Source: a virus. From it: 25,405 bases of DNA. The DNA is taken from IMG/VR virus record IMGVR_UViG_3300021197_000422, positions 1 through 25,405 of that record; one strand, given 5' to 3'. The position numbers and the translations under genes were made by a program. The stretch's first letter is position 1. Every line of letters begins with the position of its first letter. Under the pieces are notes generated by a model that was not told the origin of the DNA, did no database searches, and was given only the letters and a program-made list of their open reading frames with translations. Below, one piece after another: positions 2,363-10,047 of the stretch.

Positions 2363-2507
2363 CTTTATCCTTAGTAACTGCGTTTTCGATGATTAGCTCT
2401 AATTCTTTACGCATACTGCGTTTATTTTTTAGAGCTTGTTTCTGAAGTTTAAGCTTTATTTCTGGCTCAACTTCCGTTTTGACGACTTTTTTAAATGGAA
2501 CTGGCAT
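2355..2507 (-). CDS. Ribbon-helix-helix protein, 50 aa
   Basis: This short gene encodes MPVPFKKVVK...ENAVTKDKDG. The pattern is a basic N-terminal strand (KVVKTEVEP), a first helix (EIKLKLQKQALKNK) and a second helix beginning at the conserved turn (SMRKELELIIENAV). This is the Arc/CopG-type ribbon-helix-helix fold, which binds operators as a dimer. The ATG shares its A with the primase stop (TAATG), and its AAGGAGG site is encoded in the last codons of the primase. A repressor role for this operon is inferred from the fold only. Confidence 0.75.
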   Translation of the reverse strand: MPVPFKKVVKTEVEPEIKLKLQKQALKNKRSMRKELELIIENAVTKDKDG

Positions 2508-4288
2508 TAGTGCCTCCTTGGTAATCTAAAGGATGGTGTCCAATTCAATTCGACATCGAATAAATCACCATCACTGTTTTTGAATAATGAAACAGTCTTA
2601 TCCGTGGAGTCTTGCTTTCCATTTATACCTATTACTTTACGTGAAGCGTTTTCTATAGCACCTGAGCCTTTACCAGCATATATATCAAGAATTTGATTTC
2701 TTGAGTATTCTCTGGCTACTTGAGATATTTGTATTATTATAATATCCATATTGACTGCTAGGTTTGATAGATAATGAGATATGTATCTCACTTGTTCGTA
2801 TTCTCCTCGTATATTACCGGGTGTTTCTACTAAGTCTATATAGTCAACTACAACTAAATTAGGTTGTAGGTCACGTATAGTCTTTTGTATCATATCCGGA
2901 GTAGGCGAGACTGTTTGTATGTTTAAATGCTGTAAATACTTATTATAGTTTTCACTGACATACTTATAGTTCGCTGTAACATCGTCTTTACTCATTCCAC
3001 TAACAATTTGTTGATTACGTCTGTGCATATACCAACCACTAAGTTCTAAAGATAGAAATAATGTAGGTATTTGCCATTCTTGTTTAATCTCATCGTTAGC
3101 AAAATCATAGCCTAATGCTATGTTCTGTGCTAAGGCTGTTTTATTAGCACCAGTAGGACCGAATATAGTAACCAGTTCACCCGGATATATATTACAATCT
3201 CTATCTGTTAAACCAAACATTCTAGCAAGATTTATCATCTTACCAGTAAAGTCTGATTCTAGCCTTTCTTCTAACTCACTTTGCAGGTCGTTAGCTGTTT
3301 TTATTTCCACGAGATAGTCCTTATTTTTGTAATGTACACATTTAGGGTTACATACCTTTGCTAATAACTCATCGTGACAACCATATTTATATCCATAGTT
3401 ATATGTAGATTCTACTTTATCTATAACTATTTGTGGATTTAGCTGATTATCATTCCAATGTAGTAAAGATGCTTTTGTAGCATCAGAAGGTATTCCGTTA
3501 CGTCTAAAATGTGACGCTATGCGAAGCAAAGTATGATTACGATTGCCTTTGGTAGGTCCGTCATTGTACAATTTTTGTACGCAGGGCACTACATTAGATG
3601 GTTCGTTAATCTTTTGCATACTTCTAACTTTAGGAACCTCTGTAACAATCTTATCAGATAATGACTCATCACCCCATAAATCGTTTTGACCGAAGTCAAG
3701 CCGTCTACCGGATGCAATAGTAACAATGTCTGAAAATTGTGACGTTAATAGTTCTTCTGTTGTTAAAGGTACTTTGTATAGCGATGATTTTACATTAAGT
3801 GTATGAGGCATACGTATAATAGAAGTTCTAGTATACACAGCTGGGTCAGGGTCAAACTCATCAAGCAGTTTCATCATTGTAGCTTTTACAATAAATGGTA
3901 AATCTGGTGATGGTTTAAAACCAAATACTTCTGCTGATAAATCTATGTGATAACCAGTACCACTATAGTATATAGCATAGTTGCCATCTTTCAAACAGAG
4001 TTCCTTATTTATATAATTAAGTATCTGTTGTGTTCTAGCTAACGTGTATTCATCTGAGTCCTGTCCTCTGTCTATGTCAATAGGCACAGTATTTATGTAT
4101 CTCGTACCGAGAAAGTTCTTTATAGAACCATTGGCTTTTATAAACGCTAAAGCCTCTTCATCGTATCGGTAAACAGATTTATAAATAGCCTGTTCTTGCC
4201 CTTGTTCATAAACAATGTCCCATACATCATCTAAAGGAACGAGAGCCCCTCGTTTAGAGGGACTCCCGATTGCCATTTCAACAAACAT
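2507..4288 (-). CDS. AEP primase fused to SF4/DnaB-type helicase
   Basis: This 593-residue replication protein has two enzymatic halves. Residues about 60-175 fit an archaeo-eukaryotic primase: D71-I-D73 (metal), SGTGYH (109-114, H114), D146/D148 and IIRMPHTLN-KSSLYK. A Cys/His cluster (C303, C313, C317, H319) suggests a small zinc site. Residues about 350-590 are a RecA-like helicase: Walker A GPTGANKT (377-384), Walker B LVVVDY (479-483) and IISQ-like QISQV (520-524). It would unwind the fork and lay primers, doing the job T7 gp4 does with a TOPRIM primase. The start overlaps the SSB stop (TAATG) without its own Shine-Dalgarno, so translation is probably coupled. Confidence 0.88.
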   Translation of the reverse strand: MFVEMAIGSPSKRGALVPLDDVWDIVYEQGQEQAIYKSVYRYDEEALAFIKANGSIKNFLGTRYINTVPIDIDRGQDSDEYTLARTQQILNYINKELCLKDGNYAIYYSGTGYHIDLSAEVFGFKPSPDLPFIVKATMMKLLDEFDPDPAVYTRTSIIRMPHTLNVKSSLYKVPLTTEELLTSQFSDIVTIASGRRLDFGQNDLWGDESLSDKIVTEVPKVRSMQKINEPSNVVPCVQKLYNDGPTKGNRNHTLLRIASHFRRNGIPSDATKASLLHWNDNQLNPQIVIDKVESTYNYGYKYGCHDELLAKVCNPKCVHYKNKDYLVEIKTANDLQSELEERLESDFTGKMINLARMFGLTDRDCNIYPGELVTIFGPTGANKTALAQNIALGYDFANDEIKQEWQIPTLFLSLELSGWYMHRRNQQIVSGMSKDDVTANYKYVSENYNKYLQHLNIQTVSPTPDMIQKTIRDLQPNLVVVDYIDLVETPGNIRGEYEQVRYISHYLSNLAVNMDIIIIQISQVAREYSRNQILDIYAGKGSGAIENASRKVIGINGKQDSTDKTVSLFKNSDGDLFDVELNWTPSFRLPRRH

Positions 4289-4914
4289 TAGAACGGCATT
4301 GAGTCGTCTTTAGTTGTTGATATACCACCATTGGCAACAGGTGGCACTACCCCTTCTTGCACCTCTTTGATAAGGTTTTTAGACTTCATAAAGTTAATAT
4401 AACCTTCGAGGTCTTTCTTACCTTCAGCAGTGTTTGAAGTTAACTTTGGAAATACAGTTGTATATGCCTTAGAAGGGTCTTTACGACCGGGTTCTTTGTA
4501 TATATACGCAGTATAATCCAATGTTGGATTGAGAGGGTCTGTGACGTGATTGATGTTAAAATGATTAACTAAGTCAATCGCATTACCATCAGCGTCTACC
4601 ATCTCGCCTGTTACGTTAGGTCCGCCATCGAATCCGATAGCATCGAAGAGCCAATAAAGCCTCTTTAGTAACGTACAGGTTTTGATATTACCATTGGGTT
4701 CTTTGTCAAATGAACCTGCGAGTTTAAACTCTTGGGTGTATTGACTATCAGATACCTTTAAAGTACCAACAAGATACACATCAGCCCAATCGAAATCAGA
4801 TGATTTGTCTTGCCAGTCCAATATACCAACGGCACAATAACCTAACCATTTAGAACCTCCACCTCCTGTGGAAGCCTCTAAACCGTCAGGGCGAAAACGA
4901 GTTGTATTACTCAT
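4288..4914 (-). CDS. ssb: Single-stranded DNA-binding protein
   Basis: The 208-residue protein ends in the acidic tail TKDDSMPF. This matches the DDxxPF tail by which bacterial and T7-like SSBs recruit replication partners. The body is beta-rich (for example DVYLVGTLKVSDSQYTQEFKLAG), consistent with an OB fold. A flexible region and the tail follow. It lies between the Sak4-like ATPase and the primase-helicase, as expected for a replication/recombination set. The ATG at 4914 overlaps the upstream stop (ATGA), with AAGGAGG 4 nt before it. Confidence 0.85.
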   Translation of the reverse strand: MSNTTRFRPDGLEASTGGGGSKWLGYCAVGILDWQDKSSDFDWADVYLVGTLKVSDSQYTQEFKLAGSFDKEPNGNIKTCTLLKRLYWLFDAIGFDGGPNVTGEMVDADGNAIDLVNHFNINHVTDPLNPTLDYTAYIYKEPGRKDPSKAYTTVFPKLTSNTAEGKKDLEGYINFMKSKNLIKEVQEGVVPPVANGGISTTKDDSMPF

Positions 4915-5771
4915 TCTTCCTCCTTGTATTTTAGGATTTCATTAGATATAGCACTATACTCAAATGGGAGTATCTTCTGAGCTAGGGGTTTTAGTCGTGA
5001 ACCGACTACCCTTTCATCATACGCCTCAAACGAGACATAGTACTTACCATCTTCTTTTGACGCAGTTGTATAACCAATTACGTCAGCTTTAGCGGCTAAT
5101 GAATAACCTAAGCCACGAGGTAGTTCCGGTGCTAGTTGAACCTTTCCATCTTGCATCTGTGATGTTTTAGAATGGCTTACTAACACAAGGTTTCCTCCCT
5201 TTTTCTTCATAAGGTCTTGGAATCGTTTGATGACATCTAGATTTTTACGTCTAGCTTTGCCCCAATCTGCACCCCATTGACCTTCGCCCATAGCAGTAAT
5301 ACCTAGCTCGTTAATAACAGCATTTTCTATCCAGCCGTTAACTTCGCCAATAGTATCAATTACTATAGTGTCATAAGGCAGGTCATCCCATTCTTTAGCT
5401 AACCAGTTGTAACATTCTATCATAGAATATACTGGCATAGGTTGACCTTTCTCGTCACCAGACCGATAACGAAAACCTCGTTCTTCAGGTGGTGTTATTT
5501 CAGTCTTAGGTTTGCCACCTTCGACTATTTGCTTACCGTCTTTCTCAACGGCTCTTATAGGAGCGTTTAAACTAGTACAAGTAACTACGTTAGCTTTGTT
5601 TACAAAATCAGAGCCAAGGTCGGTGTCGATTATTACGACACCTTTATGACCTAATGGGCTCCAAGAACTTACTGCTGTAGTTTTACCAGTTTTAGGCTGT
5701 CCTATGATTAAATATGTCAGTCCGCTGGGCATTGCTGTCCAATCGGTTGACACTTTCCGTACGTGTATCAA
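4911..5771 (-). CDS. Sak4-like RecA-fold ATPase
   Basis: The 286-residue protein is a RecA-like NTPase. Walker A is GQPKTGKTT (24-32), an Asp-rich strand VVIIDTDLG follows, and Walker B is YDTIVIDT (133-140). A later strand, NLVLVSHSKTSQ, carries the sensor region. The size and order fit the phage Sak4 / AAA_24 group, single-strand annealing partners that work with SSB, which is encoded next. The start is TTG at 5771: AAGGAGG stands 5 nt upstream and no in-frame ATG occurs until codon 14. The first 80 nt overlap the end of the E1-like gene in another frame. Confidence 0.85.
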   Translation of the reverse strand: MIHVRKVSTDWTAMPSGLTYLIIGQPKTGKTTAVSSWSPLGHKGVVIIDTDLGSDFVNKANVVTCTSLNAPIRAVEKDGKQIVEGGKPKTEITPPEERGFRYRSGDEKGQPMPVYSMIECYNWLAKEWDDLPYDTIVIDTIGEVNGWIENAVINELGITAMGEGQWGADWGKARRKNLDVIKRFQDLMKKKGGNLVLVSHSKTSQMQDGKVQLAPELPRGLGYSLAAKADVIGYTTASKEDGKYYVSFEAYDERVVGSRLKPLAQKILPFEYSAISNEILKYKEEE

Positions 5772-6468
5772 TAGATACCTCCTTCTTCAGGTTTGGAGTT
5801 ATTAAAGTACCAAATTCTACCATATTTGGGTTCAGGCTGGTCCAAATATAGTCATAGTATGCAAGACCTGCAACTACATTATACATTTGTGCTAGTCCTA
5901 ATGATACAATATGGTTTGTAGCAAACACAGTGTGCTTCATACTACAAGGTGCGGCAGGGATAGTATGCGTGGGTGCCCAAGTGGACAGATAGTTTTGAGA
6001 CATATCTGTAGTGCACGTTACCATTTCTACACTTGTTGCACCCATACGGAGGTCAATTAAGAAAGCTCTTTCTTCGTGACTCACTTCGAGCCATCGAGTA
6101 TAAACCATCTTTCTTGATTCCATATCATCGGTGCATACTATCATTTTAGAAGTGACTTTGTCATCTACACCAAAATGTTCTTTTGGTACAAACTCCTGCC
6201 AGTCTTCCGAGTACCGTTGAAACAGCCCTTGAGCTGAGTCACGTTTAGCATTGCCACTTTCATCAAGTGGATAAGCTGTGGTACTTAAGTTATGGTCTTC
6301 TATGATGTCACCATCATAACCTATAACTTTGTGCCATCCCATCATAGCTAATCCTTGTATTAAGAATGAGCCAATGCCACCTAACCCTACTACTGACACT
6401 TCATTTAAGTGTGTCAATGGAATTAAGTCCTTATTTCTAAGAAATCTTGTTTTTATTTTATTTGCCAT
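5692..6468 (-). CDS. ThiF/E1-like adenylating enzyme
   Basis: This 258-residue protein has the Rossmann fold of ubiquitin-activating and ThiF/MoeB enzymes. The ATP-binding loop is VGLGGIGS (27-34). Acidic D52 and D54 in GYDGDIIEDHNL are followed by N60, then K75 (GNAKRD) and D114 (VCTDDMESRK). C175 in PAAPCSMKHT lies where E1-type enzymes carry the thioester cysteine. The usual Arg after NL is replaced (NLSTT), and no CxxC zinc pairs are present. This resembles PRTRC-type ThiF more than MoeB. It should adenylate the C-terminus of the 68-aa modifier and pass it to the E2-like protein. The ATG at 6468 has AAGGAG 10 nt upstream. The C-terminal 26 residues overlap the next gene. Confidence 0.88.
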   Translation of the reverse strand: MANKIKTRFLRNKDLIPLTHLNEVSVVGLGGIGSFLIQGLAMMGWHKVIGYDGDIIEDHNLSTTAYPLDESGNAKRDSAQGLFQRYSEDWQEFVPKEHFGVDDKVTSKMIVCTDDMESRKMVYTRWLEVSHEERAFLIDLRMGATSVEMVTCTTDMSQNYLSTWAPTHTIPAAPCSMKHTVFATNHIVSLGLAQMYNVVAGLAYYDYIWTSLNPNMVEFGTLITPNLKKEVSIDTRTESVNRLDSNAQRTDIFNHRTA

Positions 6469-6896
6469 TCAACAAACTCCTTCAACATTGCGTGTGCCGC
6501 TTCCTCTGAACCGAACATAGCAACGTCTTTTATGCGTGTAGCTTCTTTATAAAGTTCATTACGCTGTTCACAAATTGCATTATTTTCAGCCGTGATTTCA
6601 TTCTGTAACTCTGTTTTAAAGTCACTGAATCCTTTTAACATAGCTGATATTTCTATAGTACCTAAGTTTTCTGAACTTCCCCAGCCGTATCCTTCTTTGC
6701 CATCTGCTAAAATTAAATCTATAGCTTCCCATACTTTTGCTATTTCTTGAGGGTACATTACTTCACCTTTTGCTAGACCCATTTGAGCTATTGCTTTGTT
6801 GGTCATACCTGTAGTGTCTTTTAAATCATTTACTTTCTGTTCAGTGATTTCATCAATCCTTTTACAAAAATACTTTTTTTGTGGTACTGTCATCAT
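6453..6896 (-). CDS. Orphan protein inside the Ubl cassette, 147 aa
   Basis: I do not recognise the family. The protein looks mostly helical: an N-terminal helix pair (KKYFCKRIDEITEQKVNDLKD, then NKAIAQMGLAKG), a glycine-rich turn GKEGYGWGSSENLG (about 67-80), and a C-terminal coiled-coil (DFKTELQNEITAENNAICEQRNELYK). It overlaps the E1-like start by 16 nt, so the two are likely translated together. It might be an adaptor, substrate or E3-like partner; this is guilt by position only. The ATG is preceded by AAGGAGAAAC. Confidence 0.75.
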   Translation of the reverse strand: MMTVPQKKYFCKRIDEITEQKVNDLKDTTGMTNKAIAQMGLAKGEVMYPQEIAKVWEAIDLILADGKEGYGWGSSENLGTIEISAMLKGFSDFKTELQNEITAENNAICEQRNELYKEATRIKDVAMFGSEEAAHAMLKEFVEWQIK

Positions 6897-6900
6897 AACA

Positions 6901-6915
6901 GTTTCTCCTTATTTA
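6901..6915 (-). promoter_or_regulatory. Repeated ribosome-binding leader, copy 2
   Basis: This stretch is identical over 15 nt to 1369-1383 and gives the 147-aa gene its AAGGAG site. As in the first copy, it lies directly downstream (in the minus sense) of a long inverted repeat. Confidence 0.6.
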
Positions 6916-6928
6916 TTAATTAAGATTA

Positions 6929-7020
6929 TACAGAACTGGTCCGGCTTTATTGCCTACGGAGTGTTTCCTCTATTAGCTACACGTATTCGGTTTTATTAAT
7001 ACTGGCTTCACAGTTCTGTA
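6929..7020. repeat. 10-bp inverted repeat closing a 92-nt element
   Basis: Perfect arms TACAGAACTG (6929-6938) and CAGTTCTGTA (7011-7020) enclose 72 nt that can fold into several short hairpins. Read on the minus strand these include GTATT/AATAC, GTGT/ACAC and GGC-aataaa-GCC. The layout is cloverleaf-like but has no tRNA signatures. It sits in the gap between the JAB gene and the 147-aa gene. Only the outer arms are convincing by eye. Confidence 0.6.
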
Positions 7021-7040
7021 ATGTGGAAAGGGGGGAAGAA

Positions 7041-7116
7041 TGTGGGTTAAGCGGCGGTGTTAATACACTGTCGTAAATTTGGGATGCGACCAAAATTCAG
7101 AGCAACTTAACCCACA
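7041..7116 (+). ncRNA. Candidate structured RNA, three-way junction
   Basis: An 11-bp perfect outer stem (TGTGGGTTAAG 7041-7051 with CTTAACCCACA 7106-7116) closes two hairpins. The first has a 9-bp stem, CGGCGGTGT / ACACTGTCG, with a TAAT loop (7052-7073). The second has about 7 bp with a one-base bulge (7076-7097, loop gatgcga). Two pairs of the first hairpin are G-U on the plus strand and would be A-C mismatches on the minus strand. A plus-strand transcript, antisense to the flanking genes, is therefore favoured. No known RNA family is recognised. Confidence 0.55.
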
Positions 7117-7146
7117 ATCCAAATATACTACCGTTTATTCATAATG

Positions 7147-8046
7147 TCAATAGATTGTATTATAACCTGATTGTGCATCAATATATGAATGGGGGTCTAT
7201 ATTTGGACAATGTTTTCTGCACTGTTCAATAAAATCGTGATAATTTAATTCATTCGATTCCATTTTAATGAGCAGTTCTTCCATCTTTTCGGTTTCTTCT
7301 TGCGATACTTTCGTTACGCCGTCATATGCCGAAGTTTTTTTTTGAGGCTTGTCATCCTCTACTGTAGCTAAGCTATTTAAGTTAGCATAGCCTCCATAAC
7401 CGTAACCGTAGTTATTGTTATAGTTACGATTGTGTCCACCAAAAGCAGAGAGTTGATTCGTAGATGTATTTATGTACGTAATCTTGTTCTCTTTCTTCTT
7501 AGCTTTTTCAATCTTTGTAGCTTCTTGTTTCCATTCTTTTGGAATGTCAACAGCTACAACTGGTGTTGTTATTTCACCCTCTACCAAGTTTGTAAAACCA
7601 AACTGGTCTTTGTACGTAAGGCAACAATCAAATGGTTCTCCAGATGAAGCTACAACTGTACTAAAGAATATACCGTCTTTTACGGCTTGGTCTTTAGCTG
7701 TCTCTTTATCTGTGCCACTTAGAAAAGCACCCATAGTATGATGAGAGTGTATTAATCCTAAGAAACAGTCCTTTAAATCAGGAAATCTCTTATAGATTGT
7801 TGGTAATAGTTTACCCATTGCGTCACCATCAACTTCAGTTTCAGTTCCGTGTCCTAAGTGTATAGGTTTAAAGTACTGTAAGCTGACTTCCACAGGGAAG
7901 CCGTCTTCGTCAGTCTTATCGATACTATACCACGCTGGACCAGACCATTCTGTTTTCTTAAATCTAGAAAGCAGATAGTTGATTTTGTTCTGAATCATCT
8001 CCGAAATATGAATCTCGAATGATGCTTTTGTGTTTGTCTCTGACAC
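7147..8046 (-). CDS. JAB/JAMM metallopeptidase (deubiquitinase-like)
   Basis: The 299-residue protein has a complete JAMM zinc motif: H100-S-H102, seven residues, S110, two residues, D113 (HSHHTMGAFLSGTD). E33 (KTEWSGPAW) is the likely upstream catalytic glutamate. JAMM enzymes cut isopeptide bonds or mature ubiquitin-like precursors. After the catalytic domain (to about 170) come a Lys-rich helix, the motif NQLSAFGG (197-204), a low-complexity Asn/Tyr/Gly stretch (206-220) and a C-terminal helical region (245-299). The start is GTG at 8046 with AAGGAGG 7 nt upstream. The first 83 nt overlap the end of the E2-like gene. Expected role: processing the 68-aa modifier and removing it from targets. 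Confidence 0.9.
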   Translation of the reverse strand: MSETNTKASFEIHISEMIQNKINYLLSRFKKTEWSGPAWYSIDKTDEDGFPVEVSLQYFKPIHLGHGTETEVDGDAMGKLLPTIYKRFPDLKDCFLGLIHSHHTMGAFLSGTDKETAKDQAVKDGIFFSTVVASSGEPFDCCLTYKDQFGFTNLVEGEITTPVVAVDIPKEWKQEATKIEKAKKKENKITYINTSTNQLSAFGGHNRNYNNNYGYGYGGYANLNSLATVEDDKPQKKTSAYDGVTKVSQEETEKMEELLIKMESNELNYHDFIEQCRKHCPNIDPHSYIDAQSGYNTIY

Positions 8047-9559
8047 TAGTTAACCTCCTTGTATACTCGTTAATTACGTTAGTGTAATTCTTTACACATT
8101 CGTTTGTGAAATGCTCAGAATACTTTTCCACTTCGCTACCTTCTCTGTTATATACATCGCCGTTAGCAACATAACCTCTTATAAATGATTCTACATTTAT
8201 AGCTATATCAAAGTGGTCATCTCTTCTGAGAAACCCTGTCTTATCTTGCCCGTGAAGTTTTGCAAATGTGTGTAATGTTTCATAAGCATTATACATTCTA
8301 TCACTTCTACTCAAGTAAAAAGCAGTGTGTTTAAGTGCTTCTTTCTTGTTAAGATATTTAACCTCTTGGTTTGCAGTTCCTTTTTCAATACTACGTTTAA
8401 ATTGGAAAAGAGAAGCTACATCGACAGGTGTTCTTGTAATGTGAACATCTTGTCTAGTGAGCTGTCTTGCATCCATCATAATAGTATTCATTTGAATCAA
8501 GGGACATCGCAAAGTTGAGCGGTTTCTAGTCCAAGGTTTTACTTGGTACGTTTTAGGTACACCCATCATTGCTTCAGCGGCTAAATTAGTTGCAATGTTA
8601 TCAGGTACTTGTAAAGCTGTACTAGTTTTACCAATGGTTACATAGAATATATGTTCAATGTGTTTGTAAAAGTCCTTAAACCCATTGAAGTATCTACATT
8701 CTGTATCTCCCTTTACTACTTGATTTAGAGCGATTCCATAAAATAAATCCATTACCATAATACCCCATTTATCGTCAAAACCATACATTTGACCAATAGC
8801 GGTTAATTCACCAGTGTTAGCAATTATCCATTCACCGAATTGTCTACGTCTAGGCATAGACGTGTCCGTTCCTGTAAAATCATAATTACGACTATACAAC
8901 TCCAGCCACAAAGTCTTTTGAGTTAGCCATTTAGTAAACGGCACAGCTTTCTTGAACAATGGTGGAAGGTAACGCCACTCTCTGTAATCACTATTAATAT
9001 TCCAGAAGGCATCATTAGATGTCCACGTATTTAAAAATGATTTACAAACATTTACCAATGATGGTATTTGTCCAGAGTTTACAGCACTTGCCCAAGCATT
9101 AGACCAGCCACCTAAACAAGGTGAGCCATCATTACCAACGTGAGGATGTACTGGTATTGCTTGATTTAAATATGGAGTAGTTACATACTTACGTCCACTT
9201 GAGCGTTCCCAGTTTTCCTGTTGAGCTACACATATCTTTTTAAACAACGGGTTTTCATCGCCTGTCATTCTAATAAGAACATTTGTAGGGTATCTTGAAT
9301 TAAAGAATAAAGAATGAGATGGTAATGTGTAGTTAACAGTTCCTCTAAACTGAGGAGAACCTATTTTAACATAAAACTCATAATAATTCTGTACCCCTCT
9401 TTGACCCTCATTGATAGTTACCTGCGTACAATCGTGCATATCAATTTTGGGTAACATATTCTTTGCTAACTCCATTGCCTCATCGACATCCAATGTGCCA
9501 CCGTCATACTTTGACAATGCTCTTAGATACTTAGATAAAAATAATAATTTCTCGTGCAT
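7964..9559 (-). CDS. E2-like (UBC-fold) protein with long C-terminal extension
   Basis: Residues about 45-190 look like a ubiquitin-conjugating fold. Strands YYEFYVKIG and FRGTVNYTLP are followed by SRYPTNVLIRM (equivalent of the YPxxPP strand). The active-site segment is H138-P139-H140-VGNDGSP-C148-LGGW, then a helix VNVCKSFLNTW. Compare HPNIxxxGxICLDIL of classical E2s; C148 is the predicted thioester cysteine. At 531 residues it is about three times the normal E2 length. The C-terminal 330 residues are unassigned and largely helical, ending in NQLSAF. PRTRC protein B is the nearest known analogue I can name. AAGGAGG lies close before the ATG at 9559. Confidence 0.8.
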   Translation of the reverse strand: MHEKLLFLSKYLRALSKYDGGTLDVDEAMELAKNMLPKIDMHDCTQVTINEGQRGVQNYYEFYVKIGSPQFRGTVNYTLPSHSLFFNSRYPTNVLIRMTGDENPLFKKICVAQQENWERSSGRKYVTTPYLNQAIPVHPHVGNDGSPCLGGWSNAWASAVNSGQIPSLVNVCKSFLNTWTSNDAFWNINSDYREWRYLPPLFKKAVPFTKWLTQKTLWLELYSRNYDFTGTDTSMPRRRQFGEWIIANTGELTAIGQMYGFDDKWGIMVMDLFYGIALNQVVKGDTECRYFNGFKDFYKHIEHIFYVTIGKTSTALQVPDNIATNLAAEAMMGVPKTYQVKPWTRNRSTLRCPLIQMNTIMMDARQLTRQDVHITRTPVDVASLFQFKRSIEKGTANQEVKYLNKKEALKHTAFYLSRSDRMYNAYETLHTFAKLHGQDKTGFLRRDDHFDIAINVESFIRGYVANGDVYNREGSEVEKYSEHFTNECVKNYTNVINEYTRRLTSVRDKHKSIIRDSYFGDDSEQNQLSAF

Positions 9560-9594
9560 TATTATCCTCCTTAGTTAATTAAAAAATTCTTTTC

Positions 9595-9616
9595 AGGGAG
9601 CTCCGAAGAGCCCCCC
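9595..9616 (-). terminator. UUCG stem-loop between Ubl and E2
   Basis: On the minus strand a 9-bp G+C-rich stem (GGGGCTC side, two G-U pairs) is capped by the very stable c(UUCG)g tetraloop. An AT-rich stretch with six U follows about 10 nt later. It starts 13 nt after the modifier's stop codon and precedes the E2 ribosome site. It is probably an intrinsic terminator or attenuator, or a 3' stabiliser. The gap before the U-run makes termination likely only in part. Confidence 0.7.
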
Positions 9617-9628
9617 GAACGTCAGTCC

Positions 9629-9835
9629 CTACTTAGAACCAGAAGTTACCTTATCAGTAACAAACGCAACAAAATCATCATCTCTGAGATTTGTGTTGGG
9701 CTCTGCTTTCTTAGCATTGACATTGATTGTGGTGTTGTCCAAAGACATACCAAGGGCTTCAGCCAATCCAGCCGGATTATCTGCGTCCATAGTTTTTACT
9801 ACACCACCAAAGGTCTGTACTAGTACTTTAGCCAT
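9629..9835 (-). CDS. Ubiquitin-like modifier (beta-grasp, MoaD/ThiS-like)
   Basis: The 68-residue protein follows the beta-grasp order. Strand 1 is KVLVQTFGG, strand 2 VVKTMDAD, then a helix PAGLAEALGM, strand 3 TTINVNAKK, the loop NTNLRDDDF and the last strand FVAFVTDK. The segment from the helix to the C-terminus has the typical MoaD/ThiS spacing (vNgk...LkdgDeV). It ends VTSGSK: G66 followed by Ser-Lys rather than a free Gly-Gly. Conjugation would therefore probably need trimming, for which the neighbouring JAMM peptidase is the obvious candidate. Its ATG shares a base with the AT-hook gene stop (TAATG) and has AAAGGAG upstream. Confidence 0.75.
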   Translation of the reverse strand: MAKVLVQTFGGVVKTMDADNPAGLAEALGMSLDNTTINVNAKKAEPNTNLRDDDFVAFVTDKVTSGSK

Positions 9836-10047
9836 TATTTGACTCCTTTGTCAGCCAGAGGTTTTAAAGATTGCTTACGAGGACGTCCTCTTCTCTTACC
9901 GTTCTCTAAAGCAAGTTGTATTTCATTTAATTTGAATGTGATACCATTCAATCTTTTTTGATGTTGTCTCACTTGATACCATAGAGCATTAGTTGCTCTC
10001 TTCCAAGGCATTATGATAAACATTATCATTCTTCCGATTTTACGCAT
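9835..10047 (-). CDS. AT-hook protein, 70 aa
   Basis: The protein has a hydrophobic, basic N-terminus (MIMFIIMPWKR), a middle helix, and at residues 51-58 KRRGRPRK, a classical AT-hook core (RGRP flanked by basic residues) that binds the minor groove of A+T-rich DNA. It is translationally coupled to the ubiquitin-like modifier downstream (TAATG). The ATG at 10047 has TAGGAG upstream. It could tether something to DNA or be a modification target, but both ideas are speculative. Confidence 0.7.
   Translation of the reverse strand: MRKIGRMIMFIIMPWKRATNALWYQVRQHQKRLNGITFKLNEIQLALENGKRRGRPRKQSLKPLADKGVK

Follow-up and report, generated by a model that had tools for sequence, protein, structure and literature searches.

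Complete prokaryotic E1-E2-Ubl-JAMM pathways, combining an activating enzyme (E1), a conjugating enzyme (E2), a ubiquitin-like protein (Ubl) and a JAMM-type peptidase (JAB), are best known from cells, where Bil, Bub and CBASS turn such chemistry on phages. E1-E2-JAB-Ubl operons were described in bacteria in 2006 (PMC1779556), and Bil, one type of these operons, is an anti-phage system with a pair of Ubl domains in BilA, a CEHH motif in BilB, and an inactive adenylation domain alongside an active one in BilD (PMC11354881). The IMG/VR virus record IMGVR_UViG_3300021197_000422 (the whole stretch analysed, 25,405 bases, hereafter the window) encodes a comparable set of its own, located in the replication operon. 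Based on sequence features and structure models, this set probably constitutes a phage-owned, reversible Ubl-conjugation pathway working like eukaryotic ubiquitin or SUMO transfer (probability of about 80%).

The replication operon occupied the left part of the window, on the minus strand, opposite to the structural genes. Upstream of the genes for Sak4, SSB and a primase-helicase were five minus-strand genes encoding a ubiquitin-like modifier (UBL), an E2-like protein, a JAMM peptidase, an orphan and an E1. The sequence-only reading had proposed these open reading frames on a single strand with a 147-amino-acid orphan among them, and all were recovered at the positions it gave:

9629..9835, minus strand: UBL, 68 amino acids, ubiquitin-like modifier, predicted to end at Gly66 when mature (KVTSG, followed by SK)
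9592..9619, minus strand: hairpin between UBL and E2, 12 bp, GC-rich, UUCG loop, then a U-rich tract
7964..9559, minus strand: E2-like protein, 531 amino acids, UBC-like domain at about 1-215 with HPH 138-140 and C148, helical C-terminal domain 216-510, tip QNQLSAF
7964..7990, minus strand: last residues of the E2-like protein, EQNQLSAF then stop, in overlap with the JAB frame; QxQLS-hydrophobic motif conserved
7147..8046, minus strand: JAMM/JAB metallopeptidase, 299 amino acids, GTG start with AAGGAGG
6453..6896, minus strand: orphan, 147 amino acids, ends conserved, no convincing family or structure match
5692..6468, minus strand: E1, ThiF-type activating enzyme, 258 amino acids, single adenylation domain, Cys175 in the crossover-loop region

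An AAGGAG-type Shine-Dalgarno sequence preceded every gene of the set. Chance open reading frames or over-reading were ruled out by conservation, the Shine-Dalgarno sites and the ratios of nonsynonymous to synonymous substitution rates (dN/dS).

The AlphaFold2 model of the UBL (alignment of 17 sequences) had a beta-grasp fold, as had been proposed, with a predicted local distance difference test (pLDDT) score of 87.7. Its structural neighbours were TtuB (VIA Z 9.3; 1.5 A over 61 residues), MoaD (8.4) and SAMP2 (8.0), and Foldseek gave SUMO and ubiquitin matches (E 3.5e-4). The C-terminus consisted of K-x-x-S-G followed by 0-5 variable residues in 29/29 distinct UBL sequences, and divergent members had GG ends (NNKVGG, KIKNGG). 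Because KxxSG is followed by a variable short tail, the expected pattern, the UBL is probably a precursor trimmed to its C-terminal glycine. Fold model and tail thus agree with a beta-grasp modifier bearing a releasable glycine, and its dN/dS (0.04-0.14) indicated strong purifying selection.

The E1 matched Pfam ThiF above the cut-off (6.6e-9), and its profile matches included UBA3 (1.7e-8), UBA6, UBA5, MoeB and Cap2. The GxGGxG motif (G28, G30, G31, G33), D52, D54, K75 and C175 were at least 95% conserved (43 sequences), while R11, D52, D54, N60, K75, D114, R119, D139, R141 and C175 were kept in 30/30 proteins, which came from Patescibacteria, a Verrucomicrobia bin, crAss-like and Flavobacterium phages as well as the window's own group. 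Together, R11, GxGGxG, D52, D54, K75, D114 and C175 characterise an adenylating E1 with a catalytic cysteine. The JAB possessed the complete JAMM motif E...HxH-x7-S-x2-D (H100-S-H102-x7-S110-x2-D113), with E33, H100, H102, S110 and D113 at least 95% conserved in 43 sequences and invariant in 31. Although this motif is complete, the match to Prok-JAB (2.4e-4) remained below the cut-off; the best solved-structure match was an archaeal Rpn11-like JAMM (E 0.18). The orphan had conserved ends (MTVPQKKYFxxRID and TRIKDxxMFGSEExAHxMLxxF), gave no convincing match in family or structure searches, and was missing from some lineages that retained the rest of the set.

In the E2-like protein, conservation was confined to residues 41-215, above all 131-215, and to the last 11 residues. 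H138, P139, H140 and C148 were at least 95% conserved among 34 distinct sequences, and the invariant residues were H138, P139, H140, P147, C148, L149, G150, N177, W179 and N189. Eukaryotic E2s carry the motif HPNI..G.ICLD, in which HPN-x7-C has the same spacing as HPH-x7-C here, and the motif of a divergent relative (L123; HPYIS..GTICLD) reads even more like that of E2s. In the AlphaFold2 model built from the alignment (pLDDT 83.5), nearly all of the top 24 VIA rows were UBC, UEV or RWD folds (Z 5.4-4.4, residues 1-220). This modest similarity, taken with the invariant HPH-x7-C148, was counted as a UBC-fold E2 with an active-site cysteine. Residues 216-510 were helical, with a median identity between relatives of 14-16%, and a role in target selection would suit them; dN/dS over the whole gene was 0.24-0.63. 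The four-component set proposed by the sequence-only reading, including the catalytic residues named for E2, JAMM and E1, was therefore upheld by motifs, the Pfam ThiF match, AlphaFold models and conservation in relatives.

As the UBL model most resembled TtuB and MoaD in structure and the E1 is a single-domain, ThiF-type enzyme, the UBL could also be a ThiS/MoaD/TtuB-like thiocarboxylate carrier for tRNA or nucleotide thiolation, the "E2" being an unrelated partner; JAMM proteins also accompany sulfur carriers (PMC1779556). Such a role is improbable, however, since the same operon encodes a protein of E2 fold whose HPH and Cys are invariant, no rhodanese or sulfurtransferase was recognised nearby by family searches, and in most members the UBL terminates in SG with a tail that varies.

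In the conjugation pathway preferred here, the JAMM peptidase would trim the short tail after Ser-Gly of the UBL precursor. The single-domain E1, to judge from R11, GxGGxG, D52, D54, K75, D114 and C175, would then adenylate the C-terminal glycine of the UBL and form a thioester on C175, from which the UBL would pass to C148 of the E2, beside HPH. A target selector built into the E2, its helical and fast-evolving C-terminal domain, may stand in for an E3; the UBL would be joined to a target amine, and the JAMM peptidase would take it off again.

The distribution of the set was assessed in IMG/VR, where relatives of the operon were reached through E1 and primase-helicase searches. Scanning with the E1 yielded 58 contigs, in all of which profiles detected Sak4, and the other parts were present in the same order in most of those long enough to hold them; overall, gene order was conserved in more than 50 other contigs, which provided the syntenic phages whose search had been suggested. 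As this first scan was seeded with the E1, it was repeated with the primase-helicase. Among the loci found in this way that extended 1 kb or more beyond Sak4 on its upstream side, 50/53 had the E1, and 23 of the 28 loci with E1 and at least 4.5 kb upstream held all four parts by profile. Of the remaining five, two lacked only a recognised UBL and three matched only JAB and E1. In the divergent L113 and L122-L124, inspection by eye revealed small proteins with a C-terminal GG or GGAA, together with E2-like proteins bearing HP[FY][IV]S...C. Three loci (L126-L128), though related by primase-helicase and Sak4, had no E1 within the available 1.2-1.7 kb upstream, and in L126 and L127 other genes occupied its place. 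Given the E1 in 50/53 loci and full sets in 23/28, the module is almost a core feature of the lineage, a family of uncultured tailed phages. A DNA-level search of phages gave no match, and single-sequence E2 searches of phages and IMG/VR were empty because the E2 diverges too fast.

The placement beside Sak4, SSB and the primase-helicase was likewise conserved in relatives, in agreement with the sequence-only reading, whose suggestion that a full set would be unusual in a replication operon did not hold: the set is near-constant in the lineage, and a like-ordered set was found in crAss-like and Flavobacterium phages. The neighbouring genes were:

4911..5771, minus strand: Sak4-like recombinase, TTG start, phrog_124 (2e-25)
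4288..4914, minus strand: SSB-like protein ending in DDSMPF, an SSB-type acidic tail, with a conserved position beside Sak4
2507..4288, minus strand: primase-helicase, DnaB_C (7.6e-13) and PriCT_1 (7e-6)
9835..10047, minus strand: 70-amino-acid basic protein with RGRPRK, directly upstream of the UBL, conserved in many relatives

Family searches gave no match for the SSB-like protein. The basic protein, for which only an AT-hook hint was obtained (E 0.1), is possibly part of the operon.

The E2 C-terminal domain diverges fast while the UBL is nearly fixed, as expected if the target varies by host, and this pattern also fits a pathway that tags host defence or metabolic proteins, or that acts as a decoy for a host Ubl defence such as Bil. 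This counter-defence or host-takeover role is possible, if clearly short of an even chance, because the divergence suits host-specific targets almost as well as the gene linkage and the E2 tail suit replication targets. However, presence in 50/53 loci within the replication operon, and also beside crAss-like replication genes, is unlike typical accessory counter-defence genes, and no likeness to Bil was detected beyond generic folds.

Searches of phages with the E1 and JAB (tblastn) gave matches mainly in crAss-like and Flavobacterium phages. In crAss001, a crAss-like phage of Bacteroides, the order was Gp79, Gp78, Gp77 (JAB) and Gp76 (ThiF), adjoined by primase, Sak4 and helicase; DAC15 and Dulem virus 41 had the same order, and in Flavobacterium phage FpV4 all four genes were found, with a toprim protein nearby. 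These genes were annotated as hypothetical or thiamine biosynthesis, PHROGs listed all of these crAss-like families as unknown function, and the Crassvirales papers searched made no mention of ubiquitin or ThiF. In Gp79-type proteins, the first ~85-100 residues ended in KK[IV][KRS]SG (KQVKSG in FpV4), with K85, S89 and G90 invariant in 13 sequences, and a long extension followed, whereas Y-x-H-S-H and C-x-G were invariant in the E2-like Gp78-type proteins. The two groups thus share the Ubl, E2-like, JAB, E1 order near replication genes, homologous JAB and E1, and the KxxSG and H-x-H...C motifs, but the crAss-like and FpV4 Ubl has a C-terminal extension of ~100-220 amino acids after KSG, and their E2-like proteins have HSH as the motif and a longer loop, the likeness of Ubl and E2 being one of sequence. 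The parallel rests on JAB and E1 homology, gene order and motifs; as hhalign comparisons of the marine and crAss E2s and Ubls were not significant, homology of these two proteins is not claimed as proven.

Several insertions were observed in the crAss-like genes. Group I introns (Rfam RF00028) interrupted the E2-like gene next to the HxH motif in one crAss-like contig (L151:2261-2492) and the JAB gene in another (L142:3663-3922); such introns often interrupt important phage genes. In addition, a NUMOD/HNH-like open reading frame was inserted right after KKIKSGKF, at the Ubl/extension boundary of a crAss-like Ubl gene (L141:1770-2973). Related clusters also occurred in cellular bins. Two Patescibacteria contigs (L064:7040-9696, L065:7051-9948) encoded a membrane E2-like protein (HPxG..C.G), JAB and E1, followed in L065 by a 70-amino-acid Ubl ending in KIKNGG. 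A Poseidoniales bin (marine group II archaea) had an E1-JAB pair (L066:8974-10181), and E1 relatives were present in other Euryarchaeota bins (L067, L068, L070, L071). A Verrucomicrobia-binned contig, possibly viral, encoded Ubl-like, E2-like (HPHISNNDFCLGG), JAB and E1 proteins in order (L073:6192-9657).

The E2 gene overlapped the JAB gene by 83 nt, and the Sak4 start lay inside the E1 gene; both overlaps look real because each gene has its own Shine-Dalgarno sequence. The possibility of a wrongly called JAB/E2 overlap was rejected, as an AAGGAGG site and a GTG start of its own serve the JAB, and selection appears to act on both frames. The last 11 residues of the E2, encoded within the overlap, had a mean identity of 57%, compared to 16% in residues 301-510, with the tip QNQLSAF in the window and QLSLEAF, QLSIDSF, QISIESF or QVQLF in relatives. 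Within the E2-tail overlap, the third base of JAB codon 22 was C in 25/28 diverse sequences (elsewhere in JAB, ATC accounted for ~12% of Ile codons and GTC for 11% of Val codons), and that of codon 24 was T in 28/28. As JAB third codon positions, otherwise free, are biased to the needs of the E2, the E2 reading of the overlap appears selected in its own right, and this bias speaks against a tail motif that merely follows from JAB coding; a nucleotide-level signal may nonetheless lie behind it.

Sliding-clamp-binding peptides have the form QL[SD]LF or QxxLxxF, which the E2 tail resembles at the sequence level, a lead towards its partners. Two features, the selected E2 tail and an almost constant proximity to replication genes, together favour phage or host replication-fork proteins as targets (Sak4, SSB, the primase-helicase, or host clamp partners reached via the E2 tail), an assignment that stays tentative and just under an even chance. 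A broader proposal is unlikely as it stands, namely that in at least two phage lineages, the window's group and the crAss-like and Flavobacterium phages, a SUMO-like pathway would be core to DNA replication, the E2 tail docking on the sliding clamp and the variable E2 domain choosing replisome targets, as a viral counterpart of PCNA modification.

A number of observations weigh against the conjugation pathway. The UBL terminus is SG, not GG, in most members; the E1 lacks the second Arg of the MoeB-type NLQRQ (here HNLSTT); and no E3 was recognised. Fold similarity of the E2 was modest (best Z 5.4), many of its top structural rows were inactive UEV or RWD folds, its model gave no Foldseek match at E<=0.001, and its sequence gave no Pfam match and only chance helical matches in a profile search of the PDB. 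Because of the modest Z and the empty Foldseek search, its UBC fold is well supported only jointly with the HP-x-x7-C motif. The non-significant hhalign comparisons count on the same side, as does the fact that the link to replication targets consists of gene neighbourhood and a tail motif.

The right part of the window encoded terminase, portal, major capsid and tail proteins. The terminase, portal and major capsid genes confirm that a virus owns the system, as had been inferred; capsid, terminase and primase matches were too remote to assign a host to this phage. Known phage JAB/Ubl pairs (PMC1779556) would allow a role in virion or tail maturation, as proposed for the lambda-type TAPI/TAPK genes. 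This role is very improbable, as the set belongs to the replication operon, the structural genes being on the other strand, includes E1 and E2, and has a JAB not fused to NlpC/P60.

Strong hairpins or larger structures were present in the UBL-E2 gap of most relatives, and none matched an Rfam family. The UBL-E2 hairpin may act as an attenuator or as a site of RNA processing, by which UBL would be made in excess of the enzymes. A structured RNA, likewise without an Rfam match, with the core UGAAGCCAAYAGUAAUAAAACCGACURUGUG...AAAGCCGGAC enclosed in a covarying outer stem (compensatory changes in 9/16 pairs), occupied various gaps between genes of this operon:

UBL-E2 gap: structured RNA at L084:4650-4746, L011:2062-2162, L028:2080-2213 and L110:1974-2072
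JAB-orphan gap: structured RNA at L093:3826-3912, L094:7157-7243 and L096:7180-7258
before E1: structured RNA at L100:3305-3420

In the window, a 12-pair GC-rich hairpin (4240-4268, minus strand) also lay within the first primase-helicase codons, just past the SSB stop.

In the literature searched, which left out subscription papers and preprints, no phage-owned complete Ubl set was described. Here, the pathway belongs to the phage and holds a near-constant place among its replication genes; a parallel, unrecognised set appears to be present in crAss-like phages, which abound in the human gut. If the chemistry holds true, ubiquitin-like signalling would have a major reservoir in viruses; crAss001, DAC15 and FpV4 are laboratory phages in which the question is directly testable.

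Compared with described systems, the UBL fold fits the sulfur carriers ThiS, MoaD and TtuB, which pass on sulfur as a thiocarboxylate on their C-terminal GG; the UBL terminus is SG in most members and GG in divergent ones. The lambda TAPI/TAPK genes are likewise a phage-encoded Ubl and JAB, but lack E1 and E2 and stand in a structural gene context. In CBASS type II (Cap2/Cap3) and in operon types 6a and 6b, E1 and E2 are fused, whereas they are separate genes in the window. Operon type 6d of Iyer et al. 2006 is presumably PRTRC. The window set shares with it a stand-alone Ubl with a C-terminal Gly, separate E2, JAB and E1, and an extra protein, but its scores were far below the cut-offs of the PRTRC models (ThiF, 23.7 vs 144.75 bits; PRTRC A, 12.9 vs 101.8). 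The type 6d E2 has a downstream His and no upstream one (PMC1779556), whereas in the window's E2 the upstream HPH is invariant and no downstream His is. The E1/E2/RING/Ub operon of Caldiarchaeum is cellular and eukaryote-like with a RING E3 (PMC5654768); the E1-E2-JAMM-Ubl logic is shared, and no RING protein was recognised in the window set. With Bil and Bub, the set shares Ubl, E2, JAB and E1 encoded together and a predicted processing of the Ubl precursor by JAB. It differs from Bil in having a single 68-amino-acid Ubl domain rather than the tandem of BilA, a 258-amino-acid E1 with one ThiF domain rather than two adenylation domains, and HPH before the Cys with no invariant Glu or His after C148, where Bil has CEHH downstream of the Cys. 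By the features compared, the window set is a member of neither Bil nor PRTRC, and whereas Bil is a bacterial defence, this set is owned by the phage and placed in its replication operon.

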